Below, piece after piece: positions 24,773 through 38,131 of a stretch of DNA of 58,050 nucleotides. A program made the translations under genes and the position numbers. The stretch comes from Bacillota bacterium (lineage in GTDB: Bacteria; Sysuimicrobiota; Sysuimicrobiia; Sysuimicrobiales; Segetimicrobiaceae): NCBI GenBank assembly GCA_021324975.1, contig JAJPIA010000102.1, positions 1 through 58,050 on the forward strand, written 5' to 3'. A model generated the notes under the pieces. That model did not search any database, was not told where the DNA came from, and saw nothing but the letters and a program-made list of their open reading frames with translations. Position 1 is the first letter of the stretch; every line of letters begins with the position of its first letter.

Positions 24773-25828
24773 CTACTTCGGTGACAGCGCCTTGATCTTT
24801 TGCTCGTCGAGCTGGACGACCTGCGGCGGCAGCGGGCCGTAGTACAGCGGCGTCGCGACCTTTTGGCCGTCGTGGATCATCCAGGTCATGAGGTCGATGA
24901 GCGGCTGCGAAACGCGCGTGTTGTCCACCAGGATCCAGCTGAAGCCCGCGATCGGGTAGCTCTGCGGTCCAGGGGCGTTCACCCAAACCGACCGGAGATC
25001 CGGGGGCATGTGCGCCGCCGCTTGCGCCGCGCCGGCGGAGGCACCCGGCACGCTCGGCCCGACCCACCGGCCCGCGGCGTTTCGCAGCGTGGCCATCGGG
25101 ATCTTGTTCTCGATGGAGTAGGCCATCTCGAAGTACCCGATCCCGCCGGGCGTCTGCTTGACTTGACCGGAGACGCCCTCACTGCCCTTTGCGCCCACGC
25201 CGGTCGGCCAGTCCACGGCCGCGGCGGCCCCGACCTTGCTCTTCCACGCCGCGTCTATCGCCGAGAGGTACGACGTGAAGATAAACGAGGTGCCGCTGCC
25301 ATCCGAGCGGTGTACGACGGCGATCGGCACGTTGGGGACCTTCATGTTGGGGTTCAGGCTCGTGATGGCCGGATCCGACCACGACGTGATCTGCCCCATG
25401 TAGATGCGCGCGATCACATCGCCCGTCAGGCGCAATCCGGTCGGTACGCCCGGCAGGTTGTAGCCGACCGAGACGGCCCCGAGCGTGATCGGGATGTGCA
25501 CGATGGTGGAGTGTTGCTTGAGCTGATCGTCGCTGAGGGGCGCGTCCGAAGCACCGAAGTTGACGGTGCCCGCGAAGAGCTGTTGCTGCCCACCTCCACT
25601 GCCGATCGATTGGTAGTTCACCTGTACGTTCGGGTGCAGGCGGTGGTACTCGGAGAACATCTTGGAGAAGAGCGGATAGTCGAACGTCGAGCCGGCGCCG
25701 GTGATGGTGACCGCCTGCTGCGCCGAGGTCGGCGGCGCAGCGCTCAGACCTCCCGCCACGCACGCCACCACGGCCGCCGCGATCAGCCGATGCGAGTTCC
25801 GGAGTCCGGATCCTAAATATGCCCTCAC
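24773..25828 (-). CDS. pstS: Phosphate ABC transporter substrate-binding protein PstS
   Basis: The 351-residue secreted protein captures inorganic phosphate for the PstCAB complex. After the signal peptide the mature part starts ITGAGSTFDYPLFSKMFSEY, then VNYQSIGSGGGQQQLF, NFGASDAPLSDDQL and VHRSDGSGTSFIFTSYLSA, which supply the phosphate-binding Ser, Asp and Arg residues. It starts with GTG; an AGGAGG lies 12 bases upstream. It is divergent from the rest of the pst genes, and a PHO-box-like array lies between. The C-terminus matches the family. Confidence 0.95.
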   Translation of the reverse strand: MRAYLGSGLRNSHRLIAAAVVACVAGGLSAAPPTSAQQAVTITGAGSTFDYPLFSKMFSEYHRLHPNVQVNYQSIGSGGGQQQLFAGTVNFGASDAPLSDDQLKQHSTIVHIPITLGAVSVGYNLPGVPTGLRLTGDVIARIYMGQITSWSDPAITSLNPNMKVPNVPIAVVHRSDGSGTSFIFTSYLSAIDAAWKSKVGAAAAVDWPTGVGAKGSEGVSGQVKQTPGGIGYFEMAYSIENKIPMATLRNAAGRWVGPSVPGASAGAAQAAAHMPPDLRSVWVNAPGPQSYPIAGFSWILVDNTRVSQPLIDLMTWMIHDGQKVATPLYYGPLPPQVVQLDEQKIKALSPK

Positions 25829-26032: not shown

Positions 26033-26091
26033 CTTAAGGTTCCCTTAACGCATCGATCACCGATGGTTAACGATGCCGAGGTAGCGTTAAC
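26033..26091 (+). promoter_or_regulatory. PHO-box-like 11-bp repeats upstream of the response regulator relic
   Basis: CTTAAG (26033), CTTAAC (26044) and GTTAAC (26066) fall on an 11-base period, with one degenerate unit at 26055. A further GTTAAC at 26086 is 20 bases on, out of phase. The array lies just before the regulator start codon at 26108 and faces the array for pstS. Confidence 0.55.
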
Positions 26092-26107
26092 GCCAGGAGG
26101 TGTCTCG

Positions 26108-26574
<467 letters not shown>

Positions 26575-26608: not shown

Positions 26609-26779
26609 ATGCGCGTCAACGCCGATCTGCCCGACATCGTCGTGCATGACAGCGAGGATGCCCCTATCATGTGGATGGCGTCCATGACGCCGGATGTCAA
26701 GGCCGCGCTCATCGTGCTCATATGCCTCGCCGCGGTCGTGGGCGCCGCGATCATCTTTGTCCGCGTCGTCGGCTTCTAG
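26609..26779 (+). CDS. Small single-helix membrane protein in the pst cluster
   Basis: The 56-residue product starts MRVNADLPDIVVHDSEDAPI and has one C-terminal transmembrane helix (ALIVLICLAAVVGAAIIFVR). The ATG at 26609 follows a GGGAGGAC site. It is not similar to anything I recognise. It sits between the broken regulator and the PHO-box-like array of pstC, so a role at the Pst complex or in phosphate signalling is possible but inferred. Confidence 0.5.
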   Translation: MRVNADLPDIVVHDSEDAPIMWMASMTPDVKAALIVLICLAAVVGAAIIFVRVVGF

Positions 26780-26782
26780 AGC

Positions 26783-26832
26783 GTTAACGTTCCCTTAATT
26801 GAGTTTTAACATTGGCCTCACGGCCGATTAAT
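26783..26832 (+). promoter_or_regulatory. PHO-box-like 11-bp repeats upstream of pstC
   Basis: GTTAAC (26783), CTTAAT (26794), TTTAAC (26805) and ATTAAT (26827) fall exactly on an 11-base period, with one degenerate unit at 26816. A candidate -10 (TATCGT, 26843-26848) follows. This is the clearest of the four arrays. Confidence 0.65.
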
Positions 26833-26921: not shown

Positions 26922-27914
26922 ATGCTGCATGACCACACCGCGAGGTCGATGGTAGGCGGCCCGCCGGGAGGGCCGTCGCTTGCGGCTGCCGAGCGCCGGA
27001 GATCGCGGGGCGCCGACGATGCGTTTCGCGTGGTGCTCGGCGCGTTTGCGCTCCTGGTCATCGTCATCGTGTTCGGCATCGGCTTTTCACTCGTCATGGC
27101 GTCGGGCCCGTCGCTGCAAAAGTTCGGGCCCTCGTTTCTCTGGACGTCGAAATGGGACCCGGTCCACGATACGTTTGGCGCGCTGCCGTTCATCTACGGG
27201 ACGCTCGTGACGTCGGCGCTGGCGTTGCTCATCGGTGTGCCGATCAGCCTCGGGGTCGCGATTTACCTCGCCGAGATGTCGACCTGGGGATCGGCCGTCG
27301 TGTTGTCGTTCATCATCGAGCTGCTCGCGGCGATCCCGAGCGTGATCCTCGGCCTGTGGGGCATCTTCGTGCTCATCCCGTGGGTGCGGGGCAGCATCGA
27401 GCCGGCCCTCGGGCAAGCGCTCGGCTGGACGCCGTTGTTCAGCGGGCCGGCCTACGGTATCGGGATGCTCGCGGCGGGGATCATCCTGGCGATCATGGTC
27501 ATCCCGATCATCTCGTCGGTGGCCCGCGACGTGATGCACGCGGTTCCGCAGGATCAGCGCGAGGCGATGTACGCGCTCGGCGCGACCCGGTGGGAGATGA
27601 TTCGCGGCGCGGTGCTCCCGTACGGGCGCGCCGGCATCATCGGCGCAGTCATCCTCGGGCTGGGCCGCGCGCTTGGCGAGACGATGGCGGTGACGATGGT
27701 GATCGGCAACCGCCCGCAGATCGTCGCGTCGCTGTTCCAGCCGGGATACACGATCGCCGCGGCCCTGGCGAATGAATTCTCCGAAGCGTCATCGAGCCTG
27801 TACCTGTCGGCGCTGATCGAGATGGCGCTGGTCCTGTTCGCCATTTCCCTGCTCGTCAACGCCGCGGCGCGCTGGCTCGTGTCGCGGGTCACATCATCGG
27901 TGATGGCGCCGTGA
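26922..27914 (+). CDS. pstC: Phosphate ABC transporter permease PstC
   Basis: The 330-residue inner-membrane permease forms the phosphate channel with PstA. It has the first helix VVLGAFALLVIVIVFGIGFS, the periplasmic segment FGPSFLWTSKWDPVHDTFGA and FIYGTLVTSALALLIGVPIS. The EAA-type loop is QDQREAMYALGATRWEMIRG. The N-terminal 40 residues form a Gly/Arg-rich cytoplasmic extension. The stop overlaps the pstA start by 4 bases. PHO-box-like repeats lie about 90-140 bases upstream. Confidence 0.95.
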   Translation: MLHDHTARSMVGGPPGGPSLAAAERRRSRGADDAFRVVLGAFALLVIVIVFGIGFSLVMASGPSLQKFGPSFLWTSKWDPVHDTFGALPFIYGTLVTSALALLIGVPISLGVAIYLAEMSTWGSAVVLSFIIELLAAIPSVILGLWGIFVLIPWVRGSIEPALGQALGWTPLFSGPAYGIGMLAAGIILAIMVIPIISSVARDVMHAVPQDQREAMYALGATRWEMIRGAVLPYGRAGIIGAVILGLGRALGETMAVTMVIGNRPQIVASLFQPGYTIAAALANEFSEASSSLYLSALIEMALVLFAISLLVNAAARWLVSRVTSSVMAP

Positions 27915-28774
27915 GCGTGGCGCTGGTTCCCGTCGATGTCCGCCGCCGGCGTCTGACCGATCGTGTCATGACCTGGACATGTCTGGGCGCCCTGCTCGTG
28001 GCCATCGCCCCGCTCGCGAGCGTCCTCGGGTACGTGACGCTGCAGGGCGCCTCATCGGTCACGTGGCAGTTTTTCACGCACCTGCCGGCGCCGGTCGGCG
28101 AGCCGGGCGGCGGCATGGCGAACGCGATCACGGGGACGCTCCTCGTGGTGGCGCTGGCCTCGTGCATCGGCATCCCGATCGGCATTCTGGGCGGGCTGTA
28201 CTTGTCGGAAGTGGGCGGCGGGCGGTTCGGGTGGTGGGTGCGGTTCACCGCGGATGTCCTCAACGGCATCCCGAGCATCGTGATCGGCGTCTTCATCTAT
28301 GCGCTGATCGTCGTGCCGACGCGGCACTTCTCCGGGTTTGCCGGCGGGGTCGCGCTCGGGGTCATGATGATTCCGCTCGTAATACGCACGACCGAGGAGA
28401 TGGTGCGGCTCGTGCCCGCGTCGCTCCGCGAGGCGTCGTACGCGCTCGGGATCCCGTGGTGGGTGACCATGCTGCGGATCACGCTTCGGACCGCGACGGC
28501 GGGCGTGCTCACCGGCATCATGCTGGCGGTGGCCCGTGTGCTCGGGGAGACGGCACCGCTCCTGTTCACCGCGTTCAACAACCCGTATTGGTCGCTGCGG
28601 TTCGATCAGCCCATCTCCACAATGACCGTGCAGTTGTACAACTACGCGATCGCGCCGTACGATGACTGGCACCGCCAGGCGTGGGCCGCGGCGCTTGTGC
28701 TCATGACGCTGACGCTGGTGCTCAACGTGGCGGCCAGGACCGCCGGCCGCCGGCGGTTCGGAAGAGGGAGGTAG
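27911..28774 (+). CDS. pstA: Phosphate ABC transporter permease PstA
   Basis: The 287-residue permease starts with GTG and carries [40 protein letters not shown] and the loop [20 protein letters not shown], then [20 protein letters not shown], all characteristic of PstA. It overlaps pstC and is followed by pstB after 5 bases, so pstC-pstA-pstB are one unit. Confidence 0.95.
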
Positions 28775-28779
28775 ATCGA

Positions 28780-29610
28780 ATGGACGTGCCCAGCGCAATC
28801 GTGGAAGGCGCGCTCGCGGGGCTGGCCGGCGCGCGGGCTGTCGAGGGCGTCTCCGCGGAGCGGGTGACGGTCCGCGACCTGCACGCGTACTTTGGCCCGA
28901 CGCACGCCGTCAAGGGCCTCTCGATGAGCATCCCGACGAATCGCATCACCGCGATCATCGGACCCTCCGGGTGTGGTAAGTCCACGTTTCTCCGTTGCCT
29001 GAACCGCATGCACGAGGTTGTGCCGGGAGCGAGCATGACCGGCAGCGTGCTCCTCGACGGCGAGGACATCTACGGAGACGCGGTGGATCCGGTGGCGGTG
29101 CGGCGCAAGATAGGGATGGTGTTTCAGCGGCCGAACCCGTTTCCCACGATGTCGATCTACGAGAACGTCGTGGCGGGGTTGCGGCTCGCCGGCGTGCGCG
29201 ACCGGCGGCGGCTCACGGAGGTGGCCGAACGAAGCCTCCGGCACGCCGCGCTCTGGGACGAGGTCAAGGATTCGCTCGGCAAACCGGGGACCAGCCTGTC
29301 CGGGGGCCAGCAGCAGCGGCTGTGCATCGCCCGGGCCCTGGCCGTCGAACCCGAAGTGCTGCTGATGGACGAGCCGGCGTCCGCGCTCGACCCTGTTTCG
29401 ACCTTGAAGATCGAGGAGCTCGCGCGAACGCTGCGGGAGACGCTCACGGTCGTGATCGTGACGCACAACATGCAGCAGGCGGCCCGGGCCTCGGACGTCA
29501 CCGCGTTCATGCTCGCGGGGGAACTCGTCGAGGCGGGGCCCACCTCGGAGATCTTTACGCGGCCGCGCGACCGCCGCACGGAGGACTACATTACCGGCCG
29601 GTTCGGCTAG
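28780..29610 (+). CDS. pstB: Phosphate ABC transporter ATP-binding protein PstB
   Basis: The 276-residue ATPase energises phosphate import. Walker A is GPSGCGKST with K67; then come [19 protein letters not shown], the Q-loop region [20 protein letters not shown], the signature [17 protein letters not shown], Walker [14 protein letters not shown] and the switch His in [15 protein letters not shown]. The first 25 residues or so extend beyond the usual PstB start. The ATG at 28780 follows GGGAGG. Confidence 0.96.
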
Positions 29611-29658
29611 CGCAGGCCGTCGCCGCCCGGCCGCGGCCACAGCGGGCCTCAGCCCTAA

Positions 29659-29680
29659 GCCCCGGGCGAGCCTCCGGGGC
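29659..29680 (+). terminator. Hairpin between pstB and phoU
   Basis: GCCCCGG and CCGGGGC form a 7-bp stem with an 8-base loop, followed by GCGTTTATAT. It could attenuate transcription between pstB and phoU. The lack of a true T-tract keeps confidence moderate. Confidence 0.4.
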
Positions 29681-29807
29681 GGCGTTTATATCTGATCCTC
29701 GCCGGGAATGAGGTGGGGGCAGGGGCCCCGTCGTGCATCCCAGCCCCAGGCCGTTGACCCCATCGTTCATCCGAAGGAAACGCCGCCTGTTCGGCGAACG
29801 CAATTGG

Positions 29808-30467
29808 ATGCCGACGCGGGACGCCTTCGATCGCGATCTCCGGCAACTCAGCGACGATCTCATCCGCCTCGGAACGCTGGTCGAGGATCAGGTGCGCCGG
29901 TCCATCGATGCGTTGCGCTCGCGCAGCGTCGAGCTGGCCCAGGAGATCATCACGTCAGACAACGCCGTCGATCAGCTGCACCTCGAGCTCGAGAACCGCT
30001 GCATGCAGCTCATGGCGACGCAGCAGCCCATGGCGAAGGACCTGCGCACCATTGCCGCGATCTGGGCAATGACCATCGACCTCGAGCGCATCGGCGACCA
30101 TGCCGAGGACATCGCGCGCACCGTCCGCCGGATGGCGCCGGAGCCGCCGATCAAACCGCTCATCGACATCCCGCGCATGGCGGATTTGATGCGCGAGATG
30201 CTTCGGGATGGGCTCGACGCGTTCGTGCGCCGCGACACGACGCTCGCCGAACGCATGGCCGCGGCCGACGACGCCGTGGATCACCTCTACAGTCAGGTGT
30301 TCCGGGAACTGCTCACCTATATGATCGAGGACCCCAAGAGCATCCAGCGGGCGACGCATCTGCTCATGGTGGCGCAGGCGTTGGAGCGCATGGCGGACCA
30401 CACCACGAATATCGCCGAGCGCGTGATCTACATGGTCACAGGCACGCTGCGGGAACTCAACGTGTGA
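29808..30467 (+). CDS. phoU: Phosphate signalling protein PhoU
   Basis: The 219-residue all-helical protein has the two PhoU repeats. The first contains IAAIWAMTIDLERIGDHAED, with the metal-binding E-x(3)-R-x-x-D pattern; the second contains MVAQALERMADHTTNIAERV. PhoU links the Pst transporter to the PhoR/PhoB system and limits phosphate uptake. The ATG at 29808 gives the normal length; the frame extends to 29733 with an Arg-rich stretch that is probably not translated. A second PhoU domain occurs in the fusion protein at 34592-36178. Confidence 0.93.
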   Translation: MPTRDAFDRDLRQLSDDLIRLGTLVEDQVRRSIDALRSRSVELAQEIITSDNAVDQLHLELENRCMQLMATQQPMAKDLRTIAAIWAMTIDLERIGDHAEDIARTVRRMAPEPPIKPLIDIPRMADLMREMLRDGLDAFVRRDTTLAERMAAADDAVDHLYSQVFRELLTYMIEDPKSIQRATHLLMVAQALERMADHTTNIAERVIYMVTGTLRELNV

Positions 30468-30506: not shown

Positions 30507-31403
30507 CTACCGAAACCAGCCCGCGCTCGCGCCGACGAGCAGGGCGGCGCCGAGGATGACCCGGTACCAGGCAAACACCCAGCTCGTGTGCCGCTCGAGA
30601 TACCGCAGGAGTCCCCAGATCGCGGCGTAGGACGCCGCGCTGCCGGAGAGCACGCCGATGGCGAGCAGCACCCACCCGTGCCCGCTCAGCCCAGCCTTGC
30701 GCAGCGTCCACAGCTCGAACAGCCCCGCCAGCACGATCGCCGGGACGCCGAGCAGAAACGAAAACCGGGCGGCCGTGGGACGCTCCATGCCGAGTCCCAG
30801 GCCCGCCGTCAACGTCGAGCCCGACCGTGACACGCCCGGGATGAGCGCAAACGCCTGCGCAATCCCGACGTACACACAATCCCGCAGCGTGAGCCGGTTC
30901 CACCCCCGCTTCCCTTCCGATCGCGGCTGGCCGTAGAGCTCGGCCATGGCGAGCAACGCACCCATCAGCACGCACGCCCAGGCCACGACGGCCAGGCCGC
31001 GAAGCGGCGAATTGCAGGCATTCAGCGTCTTGCGCAGCGCCAGCCCGGCGATGCCGATCGGGATCGTCCCGATGATGATGCCGGCCGCGATGCGCAGCGA
31101 GTGGTCCCGCGGCTCGCCGCGCCGGAGCGCGGCGAGCGCTTCCCCGGAGATCGCCACGATGTCCCGTCCAAAAAACGCCACGACCGCGAGCAGGCTCGCA
31201 AGCTGCATCGCGGCGGAAAACGCGGCCCCCGGATCCGGCCACCCGAACAGCGCCGGCACGATCCGCAGGTGCGCCGTGCTGCTGATGGGGAGAAGTTCCG
31301 TGATGCCCTGCACGATGCCCAACACGACCATCTTCCATGCGCCGAGCTGCACGAAGCTCAGGTTGATCGAGGTGCCGTCGCAGGGCGAGGTGCCCGGGGT
31401 CAT
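30507..31403 (-). CDS. uppP: Undecaprenyl-diphosphatase UppP (BacA)
   Basis: The 298-residue integral membrane enzyme recycles undecaprenyl diphosphate to the monophosphate carrier for cell-wall synthesis. The two active-site motifs are intact: GIVQGITELLPISSTAHL near the N-terminus and ALIPGVSRSGSTLTAGLGLG in the second half. It has 7-8 hydrophobic segments. The ATG at 31403 has no good ribosome binding site of its own but overlaps the stop of a 12-codon leader ORF (ATGA), which has one. An in-frame ATG at 31442 is a less likely alternative because its GGAGG is too close. Confidence 0.93.
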   Translation of the reverse strand: MTPGTSPCDGTSINLSFVQLGAWKMVVLGIVQGITELLPISSTAHLRIVPALFGWPDPGAAFSAAMQLASLLAVVAFFGRDIVAISGEALAALRRGEPRDHSLRIAAGIIIGTIPIGIAGLALRKTLNACNSPLRGLAVVAWACVLMGALLAMAELYGQPRSEGKRGWNRLTLRDCVYVGIAQAFALIPGVSRSGSTLTAGLGLGMERPTAARFSFLLGVPAIVLAGLFELWTLRKAGLSGHGWVLLAIGVLSGSAASYAAIWGLLRYLERHTSWVFAWYRVILGAALLVGASAGWFR

Positions 31404-31438
31404 CGTGGCGCAGCCCCGCGCGTGATGAACAGCCGCAT
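31400..31438 (-). CDS. Putative 12-codon leader peptide coupled to uppP
   Basis: The reading frame MRLFITRGAAPR has a GGAGGA site 4 bases ahead of its ATG, and its TGA overlaps the uppP start codon. It lies 56-63 bases after an extended -10 element, within the uppP leader. Such an arrangement is typical of translational coupling or a ribosome-sensing leader peptide. No conservation data are available here. Confidence 0.45.
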   Translation of the reverse strand: MRLFITRGAAPR

Positions 31439-31500
31439 CCATTCCTCCGTGGGCCGAAGTGCCGTCATCCGGTGAGGTGACGAGCGTGGCACCCGTGCAA

Positions 31501-31509
31501 AGTTTAGCA
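31501..31509 (-). promoter_or_regulatory. Extended -10 promoter of uppP
   Basis: TGCTAAACT on the minus strand fits TGnTATAAT with two mismatches. It lies 63 bases upstream of the leader-peptide ATG, with no gene between. Confidence 0.5.
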
Positions 31510-31521
31510 CATACCCAAACG

Positions 31522-31770
31522 CTATCCGCGGCCGATCTCGGCTTTGAGGTGGCGCCAGGCATCGCGCGCTTCCTCGATCGATCCCTCGTCCTCGATCGTC
31601 GAGACGTCGCCGGGATCGCGTCCCAGGACGATGGCGCGGAGCACCCGGCGCATGATCTTGCCGCTGCGCGTCTTCGGCACGAGACGAACGAAGTTCAGCT
31701 CGGCGATGACGGCGACGGGTCCGAGCTCGGCGCGCGCCGTCGCCAGGATCTCACCACGCAGTCGCCTCCC
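31522..31770 (-). pseudogene. C-terminal relic of an acetyl-CoA synthetase
   Basis: The minus strand reads [40 protein letters not shown] and [20 protein letters not shown], then a stop. This is the C-terminal domain of AMP-forming acetyl-CoA synthetase, including the catalytic lysine motif TRSGKIMRR. About 80 of roughly 650 residues remain. Just upstream the matching residues RELRARLRG fall in another frame. The main adenylation domain is absent from the window, so this is a deletion remnant. Confidence 0.8.
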
Positions 31771-32421: not shown

Positions 32422-32700
32422 ATGGCCACGACGATTCCTTCTCGGACAGCGTTCATGTTCTACTATGCCGCGAACTCGACCATCAGCGCGCCGGACGCCG
32501 TTCGGGAGTGGTTTTCGACCAGTCAAAAGCTGAAGCCCCACGGCCACATCCGGGTCAAGGGCCGCTGGGGCGATGTCTATCAGGTGGGAAAGCTGATGAG
32601 CGAGCTCGACCGGACCTGGCCGTCGGTGGTCCATGACTGGCTGCGAACTCGGAGCGGCATGCCGGAGGCGCTGGTCGTCGTCTGGACGCCCGAAGGATAG
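32422..32700 (+). CDS. Hypothetical protein, 92 residues
   Basis: No family was recognised. The product starts MATTIPSRTAFMFYYAANST, has no signal peptide or membrane segment, and contains a compact hydrophilic region (HIRVKGRWGDVYQVGKLMSE) and a Trp-rich C-terminal part (RTWPSVVHDWLRTRSGMPEA). The ATG follows GGGGGAG. It ends 48 bases before the PHO-box-like array of the PHP/amphi-Trp locus, in the same direction. It may be an independent gene. Confidence 0.5.
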   Translation: MATTIPSRTAFMFYYAANSTISAPDAVREWFSTSQKLKPHGHIRVKGRWGDVYQVGKLMSELDRTWPSVVHDWLRTRSGMPEALVVVWTPEG

Positions 32701-32748
32701 ATAACGGATAGATCGCGCGCCCCATCACATCACGATTCATAACCTTGC

Positions 32749-32803
32749 GTTAACAGTTTCTTTGCCTTCGGTTTTGATTCGCATCTTGCGAGGTTAAACA
32801 ACG
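32749..32803 (+). promoter_or_regulatory. PHO-box-like 11-bp repeats upstream of the PHP/amphi-Trp locus
   Basis: Five consecutive 11-base units begin GTTAAC (32749), CTTTGC (32760), GTTTTG (32771), CATCTT (32782) and GTTAAA (32793). The first and last match the arrays at the pst genes best; the middle ones keep TT or a near match. A candidate -10 (TAGAGT, 32809-32814) follows. The surrounding DNA is A+T-rich for this window. Confidence 0.5.
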
Positions 32804-32931
32804 GTGGATAGAGTTGACCCGGAGGCATGAGAACGCTCGTGTGGACGGCAACGAATTCGGCCCAAAACGTACCTGTGCTCCAGTCGGGACGGACGCCGCA
32901 CACTCGTAGCATCGCCGGGGGAGACGCCACG

Positions 32932-33759
32932 ATGAAGCGGATCGACCTGCATACGCATGCGAAGCTCTCGAAGACCTTTCCGTTCGCTCCTCGCGCGGTG
33001 TGGCAATTCATCGCGCGGTCCAAGCGCCTGGGGCTCGACGGCGTCGCCCTGGTGGAGCACTTGCATGCCGTGGACTACTGGGGCATCCACGAAGCGCTCC
33101 GCCGCGAGTTTCGCTACAGGGATGCGGACGGCGTCTATGAGGGGCCCGATGGGTTCCGGCTCCTCAGCGGTGCCGAGCTCAGCATCCTGGAGGGTTGCGA
33201 CCTCATCGTGCTGGGCACCGTGAGGCAGCTTCAGGCGCTCGACGCCGCGCTCGCCGAGCCGCCCACGGGCGGCTACCGGCCCCCGTTCGACGAAGCGATC
33301 GCCGCGGTGCGGCGGGTTGGCGGGTTCGTGGCCGGGGCCCACATGTTCCGGCCGGGCAAGGAGCTGGCGAAAGTCGGCCTGCCCCGGCTGGCGGCGCTCG
33401 ACGCGCTCGAGTTCAACGGCAAGGACTTCACGATGGACGATCGAGTGAGCGCCGAAGCGACGCGACTCGGCCTTCCTATCATGGGCGGCAGCGATGCGCA
33501 CTTCTGGGCCCAGGTGGGGATCAAGGCGACGGTGTTGCCGATCGGCGAGATCACGCAGGCGTCCGTGGCGTCCGCGATTCGCGACGGCCTCGCATCCGTC
33601 GCGAGCCAGCCGTACGGGCCGCTGGCCGTTCAGATCAGCGGCGCGTACAAGCGGATCGCAAAAACGCAGCGAGCGCGCGCCGCTCTTCCGGGGGCGCATG
33701 CCCGTTCATCCAGCCGCGCCGTTGCGGGCCTCTCGGAGGTGGCCGGTCAGGCGCGATAG
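32932..33759 (+). CDS. PHP-domain metal-dependent phosphoesterase-like protein
   Basis: The 275-residue protein begins MKRIDLHTHAKLSKTFPF with the PHP motif H7-x-H9. It continues with GLDGVALVEHLHAVDYWG, LLSGAELSILEGCDLIVLG, VAGAHMFRPGKEL, ALEFNGKDF and the final motif LPIMGGSDAHFWAQVG. These supply a complete-looking set of His, Glu and Asp metal ligands. PHP proteins hydrolyse phosphate esters or nucleotides. The ATG at 32932 is preferred over 32827 because the conserved strand starts there and GGGGGAG precedes it. The last 45 residues are Arg/Ala-rich. It is the first gene after a PHO-box-like array. Confidence 0.85.
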   Translation: MKRIDLHTHAKLSKTFPFAPRAVWQFIARSKRLGLDGVALVEHLHAVDYWGIHEALRREFRYRDADGVYEGPDGFRLLSGAELSILEGCDLIVLGTVRQLQALDAALAEPPTGGYRPPFDEAIAAVRRVGGFVAGAHMFRPGKELAKVGLPRLAALDALEFNGKDFTMDDRVSAEATRLGLPIMGGSDAHFWAQVGIKATVLPIGEITQASVASAIRDGLASVASQPYGPLAVQISGAYKRIAKTQRARAALPGAHARSSSRAVAGLSEVAGQAR

Positions 33760-33878
33760 CACAATGCGAGGGAGCGGCCCCCTGCGGCGGCCCGCCGGCT
33801 CGGAGGAAGGGGCGCACCGGCGCGTTAAGCGAGGACGGGGGCGCCCGAGCCCCACGACGCATCCGGGAGAGTGACCGC

Positions 33879-34121
33879 ATGGCGAGACCGCTCAAGGTGA
33901 CGGCCGCGATGCCCTGCGCGGAAGCCGCGGAATTGATGACTCAACTCTCATTGGGATTGATGCACGGTACGCTCATCATCCGCTCGAGCGAGGAACGGCA
34001 CGCCTATCACCTCGGACAGGTGATTCGCCTGGAGATTCGCGCCGAGGAAGACGGCACCGAGGGGTCCATGCACATCGGGCTCCACTGGCGCGTCCCGCTG
34101 AGCGTCACAACCTCGTCCTGA
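33879..34121 (+). CDS. Small amphi-Trp-like domain protein (divergent copy)
   Basis: The 80-residue product has AAELMTQLSLGLMHGTLIIR, then an alternating strand pattern ending IGLHWRVPL. This mirrors the amphi-Trp domain of the next gene: a helix with G-L-x(2)-G, strands, and an invariant-type Trp after alternating hydrophobic residues. It is shorter and more divergent than a standard member. The ATG follows GGGAGAG. The neighbour at 34155 begins 33 bases after its stop. Confidence 0.6.
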   Translation: MARPLKVTAAMPCAEAAELMTQLSLGLMHGTLIIRSSEERHAYHLGQVIRLEIRAEEDGTEGSMHIGLHWRVPLSVTTSS

Positions 34122-34154
34122 TCGCCGGCGTCGAAGCCCGAAAGGGGGGAGGAC

Positions 34155-34487
34155 ATGGCCAAGCACGAGGACAAGGGTGGCAAGTTCGAGTTTTCGGCCA
34201 CGCTCGAGGCGTCCCAGGTCGCGGATTACCTCGTGAGGATCGCGGACGGGCTGCGGCGTGGCGTGATCGGCCTGACCGCCGGGGAGCGCGCCGTCCGGCT
34301 CGAGCCTACCGCGATGCTCGCATTCGAGATCGAAGCCGAGGGCAAGCCGGAGAAGTCCGCGGGCAGCATCGCCATGGAGCTCTCGTGGAAGCCGGAGTAC
34401 GCGTCGGCGGCGGAGGCCCTCGAGATTACCGTCGATCCCCGGGAAGAAGGGGGCCGGCAGCCCGCGGGCACAACGACACACCAGTAA
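34155..34487 (+). CDS. Amphi-Trp domain-containing protein
   Basis: The 110-residue protein matches the amphi-Trp domain: KFEFSATLEASQVADYLVRI, ADGLRRGVIGLTAGERAVRL, FEIEAEGKPEKSAGSIAMEL and the Trp in ELSWKPEY. From memory of NCBI family descriptions, such proteins occur in gene cassettes with ATP-grasp enzymes and HprK-related kinases; their function is unknown. Being small and acidic, it could be the substrate or carrier modified by the enzymes encoded downstream. That is an inference. The ATG follows a GGGGGGAGG site. The C-terminal 20 residues are disordered. Confidence 0.8.
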   Translation: MAKHEDKGGKFEFSATLEASQVADYLVRIADGLRRGVIGLTAGERAVRLEPTAMLAFEIEAEGKPEKSAGSIAMELSWKPEYASAAEALEITVDPREEGGRQPAGTTTHQ

Positions 34488-34543
34488 GCGTTCACGGTCC
34501 TGCGCATTCTCCCGAGACGCACCACCCGTGGACCGGCCGGACG

Positions 34544-34581
34544 CCGCGCGTACCCGGCCGGAGACGGCCGGGTACGCGCGG
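34544..34581 (+). promoter_or_regulatory. 17-bp perfect hairpin with GAGA loop just before the PhoU-kinase start codon
   Basis: CCGCGCGTACCCGGCCG is followed by GAGA and then its exact complement, ending at 34581. GAGA is a stable GNRA tetraloop. The base of the stem touches the GGAAGG ribosome binding site (34581-34586) of the gene starting at 34592. It could block ribosome access, stabilise a processed mRNA or terminate partly between the amphi-Trp and kinase genes. The long GC stem without T-tract argues against simple termination. Confidence 0.65.
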
Positions 34582-34591
34582 GAAGGCCATC

Positions 34592-36178
34592 ATGGCCGCC
34601 GACGCCCTGCTGACCGGCCTGCCGGGCGAGGTCACCAAACTTGGGCAGCTCGCGCTCGACCAGCTCGAACGGGCGTTGCGGTGCTACGCTTGTCGCGACC
34701 TCGCGCTGGCCGAGGAGATCATCGAGCGCGACGACGCGGTCGACAATCTCAACCTGGAACTCGAGGAACGCTGCTTCGCCCTCGCCGCCACGGGCGGCTT
34801 GTCCGCGGACGGGCTCCGCACGGTCCGCGCCACCGTCAAGATCGCACTCAATCTCGAGCGGATCGGCGACGCGGGGACGCACATCGCGAAGCGCGTCCGG
34901 CTACTGGTCCGCGAAGGGATTCCCCGCATCGAGTTTACCATTGATGAGCTCGAGCGGTGCGCGGTGACCGCCGTGACCGAGGTGGTCGAGGCGTTCAACG
35001 CGCGCGACCTCGAAATGGCCCGCCGCGCGTGCCTGCGCGAGTCGGAACTGGACGCGCACTACGTCCGCTACCTCGGCGAGGCGCGCCAGCGCATCCAAAC
35101 CGACCCCGTCGCCGTCCCGTACGTGCTGCACTGCCTCGCCGTCATGAAATATCTGGAGAAAGTGGCCGACTACGTGCTCAATATCGGCGAGCAGGTCATC
35201 TTCCTCCTGACCCGGCGTCGCTTGAAGTTTTCACAGTATCAGCAACTCGACCTGCTGCTCCCCGAGGGCACACCGGGCGACGTGGAGTTTCGCCCGTACT
35301 GGGATGGGGTGAGCGGCGCGGTGGTGGCGCGGATCTCCGGGCGCGAGGGCGACGTCGTCTATAAGGAAGGGACCCGGCGCAAGATCCAGGAGGAGACCGA
35401 AAAGCTCCGGGCGTGGGAGCAGATCGCCGGCGGGCTCACGCCCCGCATTCTAGGATCGGTCACGGTGGGGGACCGGCAGGCGCTGCTGCGCGAGTTCGTC
35501 GACAGCGCGCTCCTCTCGGAGCTGTATCTGTCCGACGCTCCGCGCCACGCCAAACTGCTCGCGACCGAGCGAGTGCTCGCGGCTGTGCGCCGGGTGTGGG
35601 ACAGCACGCTCGTCCAGACACCCCCGACCGTCGATTACGTCGCGCAGATTCTGCGACGTCTGCCGGAGGCGTTTGCGTTGCACCCCGAGCTGCGGCCCCA
35701 TCTGGAGCAGCAGATCGCGCTGCCCGACGGCTCCGTATTGTTCGCCGACCTGCTGAGGCGCGCGGAGGCCGTGGAGCCGACCTTGGTGCCGCCGTTCTCC
35801 GTCTGGCTCCACGGCGACTTCAACGCCAGCAACGTACTCTACAACGAGCGGACGGGGCAGATCAAGTTCATCGACGTGCATCGCTCGCGGCTCGGCGACT
35901 ACCTCCAGGACGTGAGCGTGTTGTCGCTCTCTATGGAGCGCCGGCCCGACCTCACGCCGGCGGTCCGGGAGGACGTTGCCGCGATCAACGCGGTCGTCGA
36001 ACGATTCGCCCGGGAGTTCGGCGCCGCGCACGGGGACCACGCATTCGAGCGCCGGCTGCTCCTCAGCATCGCGCGGTCATGCGTGACATCGGTGCGGGTG
36101 GTCATCGACCCCGATCATGCCTGGGTCTTGCTGCGGCGGGGCGTAGCGTTGATGCAGCAGACGGTGGCCGCGTCGTGA
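34592..36178 (+). CDS. PhoU domain fused to aminoglycoside-phosphotransferase-like kinase
   Basis: The 528-residue protein joins two known folds. Residues 1 to about 213 form a full PhoU domain with two repeats (IALNLERIGDAGTHIAKRVR and VMKYLEKVADYVLNIGEQVI). Residues about 225-528 form an APH-type kinase: a candidate ATP lysine K258 in DVVYKEGT, the catalytic loop H407-G-D409-FNASN414 and the metal-binding D428 in KFIDVHRSRLGDYLQDVS. All expected catalytic residues are present, so small-molecule or protein kinase activity is plausible, with PhoU perhaps as a phosphate-status sensor or membrane adaptor. Its stop overlaps the GTG of the ATP-grasp gene. Confidence 0.88.
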   Translation: MAADALLTGLPGEVTKLGQLALDQLERALRCYACRDLALAEEIIERDDAVDNLNLELEERCFALAATGGLSADGLRTVRATVKIALNLERIGDAGTHIAKRVRLLVREGIPRIEFTIDELERCAVTAVTEVVEAFNARDLEMARRACLRESELDAHYVRYLGEARQRIQTDPVAVPYVLHCLAVMKYLEKVADYVLNIGEQVIFLLTRRRLKFSQYQQLDLLLPEGTPGDVEFRPYWDGVSGAVVARISGREGDVVYKEGTRRKIQEETEKLRAWEQIAGGLTPRILGSVTVGDRQALLREFVDSALLSELYLSDAPRHAKLLATERVLAAVRRVWDSTLVQTPPTVDYVAQILRRLPEAFALHPELRPHLEQQIALPDGSVLFADLLRRAEAVEPTLVPPFSVWLHGDFNASNVLYNERTGQIKFIDVHRSRLGDYLQDVSVLSLSMERRPDLTPAVREDVAAINAVVERFAREFGAAHGDHAFERRLLLSIARSCVTSVRVVIDPDHAWVLLRRGVALMQQTVAAS

Positions 36179-37104
36179 CGCTGCGCGTCGGCGTCGCCGG
36201 CATTCCGGGGGCGTGGTCCACCGAGCATCTCAGGCGGGCCTTGGAGCAGTGCGGCTGCGACACGCTCGTGTTTTCGGCGGCGGACTGCGTCGTCGAGATG
36301 CGGAGCGGGGCGGTGCGGCACGCGGGCGTCGATCTCGGCGAGCTCGACGCCGTGGTCGTCAAAAAGTTGGGCTCCACGACGGACCCGATGGCCCCGAGCC
36401 GGGTGCACCTGCTGATCCAGCTCGAAGCGCGAGGCGTTCGCGTCTTCAGCCCGGCTGCGGCGATCGCGGAAGTTCAGGACCGCTACCGCATGACGGGGCG
36501 CCTCAGCCACGCGGGCATTCCCCTGCCCGCGACGATCGTGACGGAGAGCGTCGCGGAGGCGGCGGCGGCGATCCGGCGGTGGGGGCGTGCGGTCGTCAAG
36601 CCGCTGTTCACGTCCAAGGGCAGCGGCATGTTGATGCTCGCCGGCGGCGCGCCTCTCCGTCTGGCGCTCCGGCGCTGGCAGCGGCAGTGGCGCATGCCGT
36701 TCTACGTGCAGGAGTATGTGCCGCACGCCGGGCGGGATATCGGCGTGGTCGTCTTGGCGCGGGAGGTGCTCGGGGCCTACTATCGGGTGGCGCGCCGCGA
36801 CGCCTGGCTGACGACCACCGCGGCCGGCGGCCACTACGAAGCGTGTCCGGTCACCCCGGTGATGCGGGAGCTCGCCGTCCGCGCGGCCGACGTGTTCGGG
36901 TTGACGTTCACGTGCGTGGATCTGGTGGAAGGACCGCACGGCTATCTCGCATACGAGGTGAGCGCGTTCGGCAGCTTCGGTGGCTTGTGGCGCACGCAGG
37001 GCATCGACGCCGCACAGCGTTACGCCGAGCACGTCGTTCACACGCTCCGCGAACGGACGCCCGATGAGCGAACTGGCATCGATCATCCGCGCGTACCGGC
37101 CTAG
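36175..37104 (+). CDS. RimK-like ATP-grasp enzyme of the amphi-Trp/HprK cassette
   Basis: The 309-residue protein shows an ATP-grasp layout: LRVGVAGIPGAWSTEHLRRA, LDAVVVKKLGSTTDP, FSPAAAIAEVQDRYRMTGRL, VVKPLFTSKGSGMLMLAGG, FYVQEYVPHAGRDIGVVVLA and YLAYEVSAFGSFGGLWRT, with the usual Lys, Glu and Asn/Ser-type ligands around ATP and Mg. RimK-like enzymes ligate amino acids or small amines to carboxylates. It starts with GTG over the stop of the PhoU-kinase gene and overlaps the HprK-like gene by 41 bases. The target is unknown; the amphi-Trp proteins are candidates. Confidence 0.85.
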   Translation: MTLRVGVAGIPGAWSTEHLRRALEQCGCDTLVFSAADCVVEMRSGAVRHAGVDLGELDAVVVKKLGSTTDPMAPSRVHLLIQLEARGVRVFSPAAAIAEVQDRYRMTGRLSHAGIPLPATIVTESVAEAAAAIRRWGRAVVKPLFTSKGSGMLMLAGGAPLRLALRRWQRQWRMPFYVQEYVPHAGRDIGVVVLAREVLGAYYRVARRDAWLTTTAAGGHYEACPVTPVMRELAVRAADVFGLTFTCVDLVEGPHGYLAYEVSAFGSFGGLWRTQGIDAAQRYAEHVVHTLRERTPDERTGIDHPRVPA

Positions 37105-38131
37105 CGCGACCGTCGCGCTGGAGATTGCCGGGGTCCCCCTGCGCGTGCACACCAACGCGCCGGCCGTGCATGAGCGTCTGCGCCGGTATTTCGGCGCCTA
37201 TGTTGGCGCAGACGCCGGCGACCCCGCCGCCGACGTGTTCCTGTTCTGCGGGACGCCCATCTACGACGAGGCCCGGATGCAGGACGTGCCGCGACGCTCC
37301 CGCGCCGACCGGGTGAAGGAGGCGTTCTACGACGCCGCCGACGCTCGGGTCGTCCTCAAGCGCCGGACCGGCGTGGTCATCTACGTGGCGGAGCCCGACC
37401 ACTACGTCGTAGGAGACTTGGAGACCAACTTCAACCAAGCCGTCAACATGGTGATGATGGTTCTTGCCAAGGCGCTGGTGCGCCGCGGCTACATCGTGCT
37501 GCACGCCTCCGCCATCCTCGGCGACGCCGGGGGCATCGCGTTTGCCTCGTCGTCCGGGGCCGGCAAGTCGACGCTCGCGCTCATGCTGCTCGAGCAGCAT
37601 CATCACCTGGTGAGCAACGATCGGCTCTTCCTGCGGCCGTCGCCGGACGGCGCGGAGATGGTGGGCATCCCCAAGCAGCCGCGGGTCAATCCCGGGACGC
37701 TCCTCCGCGTGTCCCGGCTCACCCGCCTGCTGCCCGCGGACGAGGTGAGCCGCTACCGGCCGATGCCGCCCGAGCAACTGTGGCGCCTGGAACGCAAGCA
37801 CGATGTCGACGTGGAAGCCATCTACGGGCCGGGCACTGTCCGGCTTCAAGGCATGCTGCGCGCCGTCTTTCTGCTGCGCTGGAGCTTCGACAGCCGAGGG
37901 TGGAGCGTTCACACGATCCCGGCGGCGGAGCGCCCCGCCGCGCTCGGGCAGGTTGTCAAGAGCCTCGGCGTGTACGACCTTGCCCCGCCCGATCCGGCGC
38001 TGGTGGAGTCCACGCTGGCCGCGGTGTGCGAGCGGATCTCAGTCTACGAGGTCTCCGGCCGCGCGGACCTGGAGCGGCTGGCGTCGCTCGTGCTCGCCGG
38101 CCCGGCGCTGTCCCCGGCGACCGGCCCCTAG
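37064..38131 (+). CDS. HprK-related kinase
   Basis: The 355-residue protein resembles HPr kinase in its nucleotide-binding core: YIVLHASAILGDAGGIAFAS, the Walker A loop SSSGAGKSTLAL with K168, and LVSNDRLFLRPSPDG, where the Asp is the likely catalytic or metal residue. The N-terminal 130 residues are not HprK-like. It matches the HprK-related kinases that accompany ATP-grasp and amphi-Trp genes. No HPr or PTS gene is nearby, so the substrate is probably not HPr. The ATG at 37064 lies inside the end of the ATP-grasp gene, implying coupling. Confidence 0.85.
   Translation: MSELASIIRAYRPSATVALEIAGVPLRVHTNAPAVHERLRRYFGAYVGADAGDPAADVFLFCGTPIYDEARMQDVPRRSRADRVKEAFYDAADARVVLKRRTGVVIYVAEPDHYVVGDLETNFNQAVNMVMMVLAKALVRRGYIVLHASAILGDAGGIAFASSSGAGKSTLALMLLEQHHHLVSNDRLFLRPSPDGAEMVGIPKQPRVNPGTLLRVSRLTRLLPADEVSRYRPMPPEQLWRLERKHDVDVEAIYGPGTVRLQGMLRAVFLLRWSFDSRGWSVHTIPAAERPAALGQVVKSLGVYDLAPPDPALVESTLAAVCERISVYEVSGRADLERLASLVLAGPALSPATGP

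Follow-up and report, generated by a model that had tools for sequence, protein, structure and literature searches.

A GAK-related gene cassette probably under phosphate control in a Segetimicrobiaceae genome

The 58,050-nucleotide stretch of contig JAJPIA010000102.1 analysed here (the window; assembly GCA_021324975.1, family Segetimicrobiaceae) carries six same-strand genes at 32932-38131 (+). Their products, in order, are a PHP hydrolase, a pair of amphi-Trp proteins, a PhoU-APH kinase, an ATP-grasp ligase of the GAK type and an HprK-related kinase B. To judge from their order and co-occurrence, the six genes form one unit, and the promoter sequence indicates that this cassette almost certainly belongs to the Pho regulon. 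We tentatively favour its interpretation as a phosphate-regulon variant of the GAK cassettes, in which the amphi-Trp proteins would offer a substrate to core enzymes gated by PhoU, and the PHP enzyme would oppose those core enzymes.

The six genes and their conservation

A preliminary description of this DNA had listed the six genes with their positions and proposed that they work as one system. The list is borne out by family models and by third-position divergence, and is as follows.

32932..33759, plus strand: PHP-family metallohydrolase, 275 amino acids (aa), over the curated cut-off of Pfam PHP_C
33879..34121, plus strand: amphi-Trp protein 1, 80 aa with the tail PLSVTTSS; 27.9 bits to TIGR04354, below the cut-off of 31
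34155..34487, plus strand: amphi-Trp protein 2, 110 aa; 56.2 bits to TIGR04354, over the cut-off of 31
34592..36178, plus strand: PhoU-APH fusion kinase, 528 aa, with PhoU at about 34601-35218 followed by the APH kinase domain
36175..37104, plus strand: GAK-type RimK-like ATP-grasp ligase, 309 aa, over the cut-off of Pfam RimK
37064..38131, plus strand: HprK-related kinase B, 355 aa; 232 bits to TIGR04355 (cut-off 200)

At the level of sequence, the assignments to PhoU, APH, HprK_B and (for the second small protein) amphi-Trp are firm. The fusion kinase scores 140 bits with TIGR02135 (cut-off 130) and exceeds the curated Pfam cut-offs for both PhoU and APH, and the catalytic motifs HGDFNxxN and IDxxxxxxGD of its APH domain are intact. 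The same is true of the P-loop SSSGAGKST, the upstream LHAS and the SNDR motif of HprK-related kinase B, in which H147, G165-T170 and N185-R187 are invariant across two phyla. The best model for the ATP-grasp ligase is TIGR04356 (E of 3e-82, 275.9 bits against a cut-off of 300), followed by MptN; the protein is 37-40% identical over its full length to proteins annotated as GAK ATP-grasp, and its nearest solved structures are RimK and LysX. The PHP protein retains all of the metal motifs read from its sequence (HxH, EH, GAE, GAH and SDAH) and matches the CehA/McbA model with a score below the cut-off. Its only sequence match in the PDB is PsfC (7rty; E of 9e-9, 39 bits), which belongs to a different operon and at this score supports no claim of a common reaction.

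Differences from the related genomes G026 and G027 fall mainly at third codon positions in all six genes (the PHP gene was compared with G026 only), as expected under purifying selection, and the open reading frames are on this account taken to be real genes. The last three genes overlap, as had been described, by 4 nt at the PhoU-APH/ATP-grasp junction and 41 nt at the ATP-grasp/HprK junction, and equivalent overlaps are found in the relatives at every junction that is visible.

Co-occurrence was surveyed in 43 genomes of the phylum of the window, all from one order, with the genome of the window as G000. The ATP-grasp ligase, an amphi-Trp protein over the cut-off, a strong HprK_B and the PHP protein are found in the same five of the 43 genomes (G000, G026, G027, G025 and G033, representing three genera), and the PHP protein is confined to these five. 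Gene order is identical in all five except that amphi-Trp1 is missing from G033, where the cassette is divided between two short contigs. Among nine genomes in which copies of PhoU were counted, each of the five with the cassette has two, one canonical and one in the fusion, whereas the four family members without it have one or none. The families are thus not scattered among the relatives, and the proposal of a single system is supported as far as one GAK-related unit is concerned. A search of genome contigs with HprK_B returned a single locus, the near-identical one of G026. No relatives of the cassette were found on the viral contigs searched, and the six proteins gave zero matches to the PADLOC models of anti-phage defence.

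Among the small proteins, amphi-Trp1 is 62-87% identical in three relatives, and its internal PLSVTT is conserved. AlphaFold models of the two amphi-Trp proteins are of low confidence (pLDDT, the predicted local distance difference test, of 46 and 60) and have the same β-α-β-β-β-β order; a Foldseek search of the PDB with these low-confidence models gave nothing below an E of 0.1. Two more weak amphi-Trp matches lie outside the cassette in G027 (C37:13827-14012 and C33:31980-32165). Stand-alone amphi-Trp genes occur on three haloarchaeal plasmids (L069, L070 and L071), and on two of these plasmids universal stress protein genes lie no more than 5 kb away.

The PHO-box promoter and the pho cluster

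The resemblance of an array ahead of the cassette to the PHO boxes of the pst genes, noted in the preliminary description, holds up under an independent test. The elements concerned are the following.

32738..32803, plus strand: PHO-box array of the cassette, six 11-bp units, CATAACCTTGC GTTAACAGTTT CTTTGCCTTCG GTTTTGATTCG CATCTTGCGAG GTTAAACAACG
32809..32814, plus strand: likely -10 element TAGAGT directly past the array, kept in the window, G026 and G027 (by eye)
26033..26071, plus strand: PHO-box array between the divergent pstS and a phoP remnant; matrix rank 2 of 116,036, one mismatch in the genome-wide pattern scan
26783..26815, plus strand: PHO-box array upstream of pstC; matrix rank 1 of 116,036

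An array of 11-bp direct repeats stands upstream of the cassette in all five genomes; that of the window is conserved in G026 and G027, and equivalent arrays take its place in G025 and G033. The matrix was trained solely on the pst and phoU promoters of three cassette-free relatives (G023, G024 and G032). With it, the array of the window ranks seventh of 116,036 positions, after six hits that fall at the two pst-side arrays, and the cassette promoter ranks first or second of about 40,000 positions in G026, G027 and G025 and first of 7,742 in G033. In every genome scanned its score exceeds the maximum of 20 random resamples. A three-unit pattern is likewise commoner genome-wide than its reversed control in each of the five genomes. 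Its two top matches in the 4.1-Mb genome of G025 are the cassette and pst promoters, and its only two perfect matches in G033 both lie in the cassette promoter. The array of the window is too degenerate for this strict pattern, so that in the window it is the matrix and the conservation that carry the case. A scan of the cassette promoter for the sigma-70 consensus returned no site and no canonical -35 element; with TAGAGT as its -10 element, the promoter is likely to be of the activator-dependent type. A conserved hypothetical protein of 92 aa, with no family match over cut-off, is encoded ahead of the promoter (32422-32700) and is kept in G026.

The cassette also lies beside the genes of phosphate uptake and signalling, and this placement is a third, separate line of evidence for its link to phosphate.

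26922..30467, plus strand: pstC-pstA-pstB-phoU, the uptake and signalling cluster, NCBIfam equivalogs over cut-off
24773-25828, divergent from pstC-pstA-pstB-phoU: pstS, NCBIfam equivalog over cut-off

It is found inside or adjoining the pho cluster in all five genomes, at three different positions. In the genus of the window it begins 2.5-6.3 kb past phoU. In G025 it sits between phoR and pstS, which are directly adjacent in the congener G024. In G033 it is flanked on one side by phoU and on the other by a PHO-box promoter and the gene of a small membrane protein, and a contig break falls within the cassette; G032, of the same genus, has the promoter and small gene ahead of phoU and no cassette. 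Together with the arrays, these positions support, at the sequence level, the phosphate control that had been proposed for the cassette. That the cassette was acquired horizontally and landed near the pst genes by chance would fit its patchy spread (five of 43 genomes). However, chance is hard to invoke for a cassette that occupies three separate places, every one of them in the pho cluster and behind a PHO-box array, and we consider this explanation highly improbable.

Three other genes of these neighbourhoods were noted. The small gene encodes a conserved protein of about 40-57 aa with a single membrane span and a hydrophobic C-terminal half ending VR..., and occurs beside PHO-box arrays in five family genomes, preceding pstC, phoU or the cassette (window 26609-26779; L059 near 4210, minus strand; L055 near 6202, minus strand; L056 near 10321, minus strand; L028 within 1-400); it looks like an unannotated Pho-associated protein. 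In the window, the interval from phoU to the cassette contains an undecaprenyl-diphosphate phosphatase (UppP) gene on the opposite strand (30507-31562, minus strand). A phosphoglucomutase/phosphomannomutase gene, which may be a loosely linked partner of the cassette, directly follows HprK_B in G027 and comes directly after phoU in G025 (L026 7456-8859, minus strand; L027 17445-18848, plus strand).

Relation to GAK cassettes and to canonical PhoU

The NCBIfam GAK set comprises TIGR04354, TIGR04355 (HprK_rel_B), TIGR04356 (grasp_GAK) and TIGR04357 (CofD_rel_GAK), and its families are listed without an assigned function; in the literature library searched, no paper on GAK, amphi-Trp, HprK-related kinase or PhoU-kinase fusions was found. 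The cassette of the window shares with this set the combination of ATP-grasp, HprK_B and amphi-Trp, although its ATP-grasp ligase scores below the TIGR04356 cut-off. The fourth member, the CofD-like protein of TIGR04357, scored over its cut-off in no genome of the phylum, where just weaker CofD-type matches were obtained (probably YvcK), and for this reason we class the cassette as a GAK variant rather than a standard member.

Annotated GAK cassettes on Rhodobacterales plasmids (Tritonibacter, Pseudooceanicola and Qingshengfaniella) contain APH kinase, ATP-grasp, HprK_B, histidine phosphatase, metallophosphoesterase and amphi-Trp genes. Two of these three also carry a divergent CofD-like gene, and NUDIX is present in some. 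The protein annotated as APH aligns across its full length with the PhoU-APH fusion of the window. Its PhoU domain passes the Pfam threshold in Tritonibacter but not in Pseudooceanicola (PhoU-full, E of 4e-5), and is degenerate, the metal-ligand residues being largely lost. The order of kinase, ligase and kinase, with overlapping genes, is also the same as in the window, and this core is conserved between two phyla. The preliminary description had taken the PhoU module for an addition made in this lineage, which is wrong as stated; by these alignments PhoU-APH belongs to the conserved GAK core, and what distinguishes the lineage of the window is a PhoU domain that retains its metal-ligand residues. 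The cassette of the window further differs from those of Rhodobacterales in having a PHP enzyme and two amphi-Trp proteins in place of the histidine phosphatase and metallophosphoesterase, and in its PHO-box promoter and pst neighbourhood. No pst genes were seen in the 20-kb stretches around the Rhodobacterales cassettes.

Two of the enzymes have better-known relatives. RimK and LysX ligate amino acids to proteins, and the cassette ligase shares the ATP-grasp fold with them and with MptN, to which it is related; it forms a subfamily of its own, with ExS (YEVSAFGxF) at the site where ExN, the RimK motif, is expected. HprK-related kinase B resembles the HPr kinase homologues of lasso-peptide clusters of the paeninodin type in being a P-loop kinase encoded beside small gene products, but the cassette includes no lasso-peptide genes and the amphi-Trp proteins are domain-sized rather than precursor peptides. 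Those homologues phosphorylate the C-terminal Ser of peptides with little other specificity (PMC8498205).

The PhoU domain of the fusion has both three-helix repeats and the metal-ligand residues of canonical PhoU. In an alignment of the PhoU domains of the family, D58, E100, D104, D165, E200 and D204 (Escherichia coli numbering) are kept in all of the cassette domains. In addition to the attached APH kinase domain, the fusion differs from canonical PhoU at R148, the residue that contacts PhoR, which is usually lost (A, A, R, E and E in the five cassette domains). In E. coli, R148A/E variants of PhoU lose binding to PhoR and keep binding to PstB (PMC4423584). The replacement of R148 in most cassette domains, viewed with the behaviour of these variants, suggests that the fusion may take its signal from Pst or phosphate and not from PhoR. 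Descent of the domain from a recent duplication of the local phoU was considered and rejected; the cassette domains lie on a separate branch (support 90/94) and represent an old lineage not derived from the local gene.

Possible functions of the cassette

In the reading that we tentatively favour, low phosphate would switch the operon on through a PhoP-type regulator, and the PhoU domain, with its ligand residues, would let the APH kinase track the state of the phosphate transporter or cellular phosphate, probably by contacts other than the usual one with PhoR. The amphi-Trp proteins would present a substrate on which the three core enzymes, which very probably work together, act one after another: the APH and HprK-like kinases would add phosphoryl groups, and the ATP-grasp enzyme would couple a carboxylate to an amino acid or amine. 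This substrate could be the amphi-Trp protein itself (for example a Ser/Thr-rich tail) or a small molecule held by it, and the PHP enzyme would be the opposing hydrolase. The Ser phosphorylation by HPr kinase homologues and the kinship with RimK and LysX fit, as family matches, a modification of the amphi-Trp proteins. By this analogy their covalent modification is conceivable, albeit doubtful, and a function as binders or carriers of a small molecule is entertained with similar reserve. That the cassette constitutes a new branch of the phosphate-starvation response, with the PhoU-kinase gating a kinase-ligase-kinase complex, a phospho- and amino-acyl mark placed on the small amphi-Trp carriers and the PHP enzyme erasing it, seems rather unlikely.

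Several observations weigh against the favoured reading. The enzymes of the cassette have no assigned substrate, and the roles given to them are extrapolated from family membership. In the window, phoP, which is intact in G026 and G027, is a remnant (26100-26510) with a frameshift near 26240. Relative to G026, the window lacks 1.76 kb in a clean deletion that has taken the 3' half of phoP and the whole of phoR but spared the pst genes and PHO boxes; this is either a true deletion or an assembly error. With phoP and phoR damaged, control in this strain would need a paralogous pair, and may be exerted by one on contig C131. Proteobacterial Pho boxes in the three Rhodobacterales loci are not above chance. 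The canonical PhoU proteins of the family themselves have R or Q at position 148, with Q in two. Amphi-Trp1 is dispensed with in G033, and its C-terminal Ser was rejected as an invariant phosphorylation site, being P in G027 and A in G025. Finally, no GAK enzymes are encoded near the haloarchaeal stand-alone amphi-Trp genes; the domain is therefore not always dependent on the enzymes of the cassette.

The cassette could instead make or degrade a phosphorylated metabolite, such as a phosphate-sparing or phosphate-storing compound, which we regard as possible without being probable. The APH and HprK-like kinases would then phosphorylate, the ATP-grasp enzyme add an amino acid and the PHP enzyme or other phosphoesterases hydrolyse, with the amphi-Trp proteins confined to binding or carrying. 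The histidine phosphatase, metallophosphoesterase, occasional NUDIX and CofD-like proteins of Rhodobacterales look closer to the chemistry of metabolites than to the marking of a protein, and MptN, the second-best model of the ligase, acts on a cofactor; these features fit a small-molecule pathway about as well as the family matches above fit amphi-Trp modification. The substrates of APH-fold kinases are mostly small molecules, and PsfC, the nearest solved PHP protein, belongs to phosphonate biosynthesis. Set against this, HprK-type kinases are best known for protein or peptide substrates, and it would be unexplained why one or two amphi-Trp genes are always present, unless their products are carriers. 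A purely regulatory role, in which PhoU-APH is a second PhoU that phosphorylates some component of the Pho or Pst system and thereby tunes Pst/Pho signalling, the other proteins being ancillary, would agree with the location in the pho cluster, the ligand residues of PhoU and the exactly one extra PhoU per cassette genome. It would, however, leave the ligase and second kinase superfluous, and the Rhodobacterales core, with its degenerate PhoU and no pst genes nearby, implies that the enzymes can work without the Pho system; we judge such a relay improbable.

For GAK cassettes in general, the tie to the Pho regulon would be a first testable clue to function. Combined with the place of PhoU-APH in the conserved core, it would supply a growth condition, a sensor and an order of enzymes. 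If the favoured reading of a PhoU-gated GAK variant is true, PhoU fused to a kinase would give phosphate sensing an output that does not run through PhoR.

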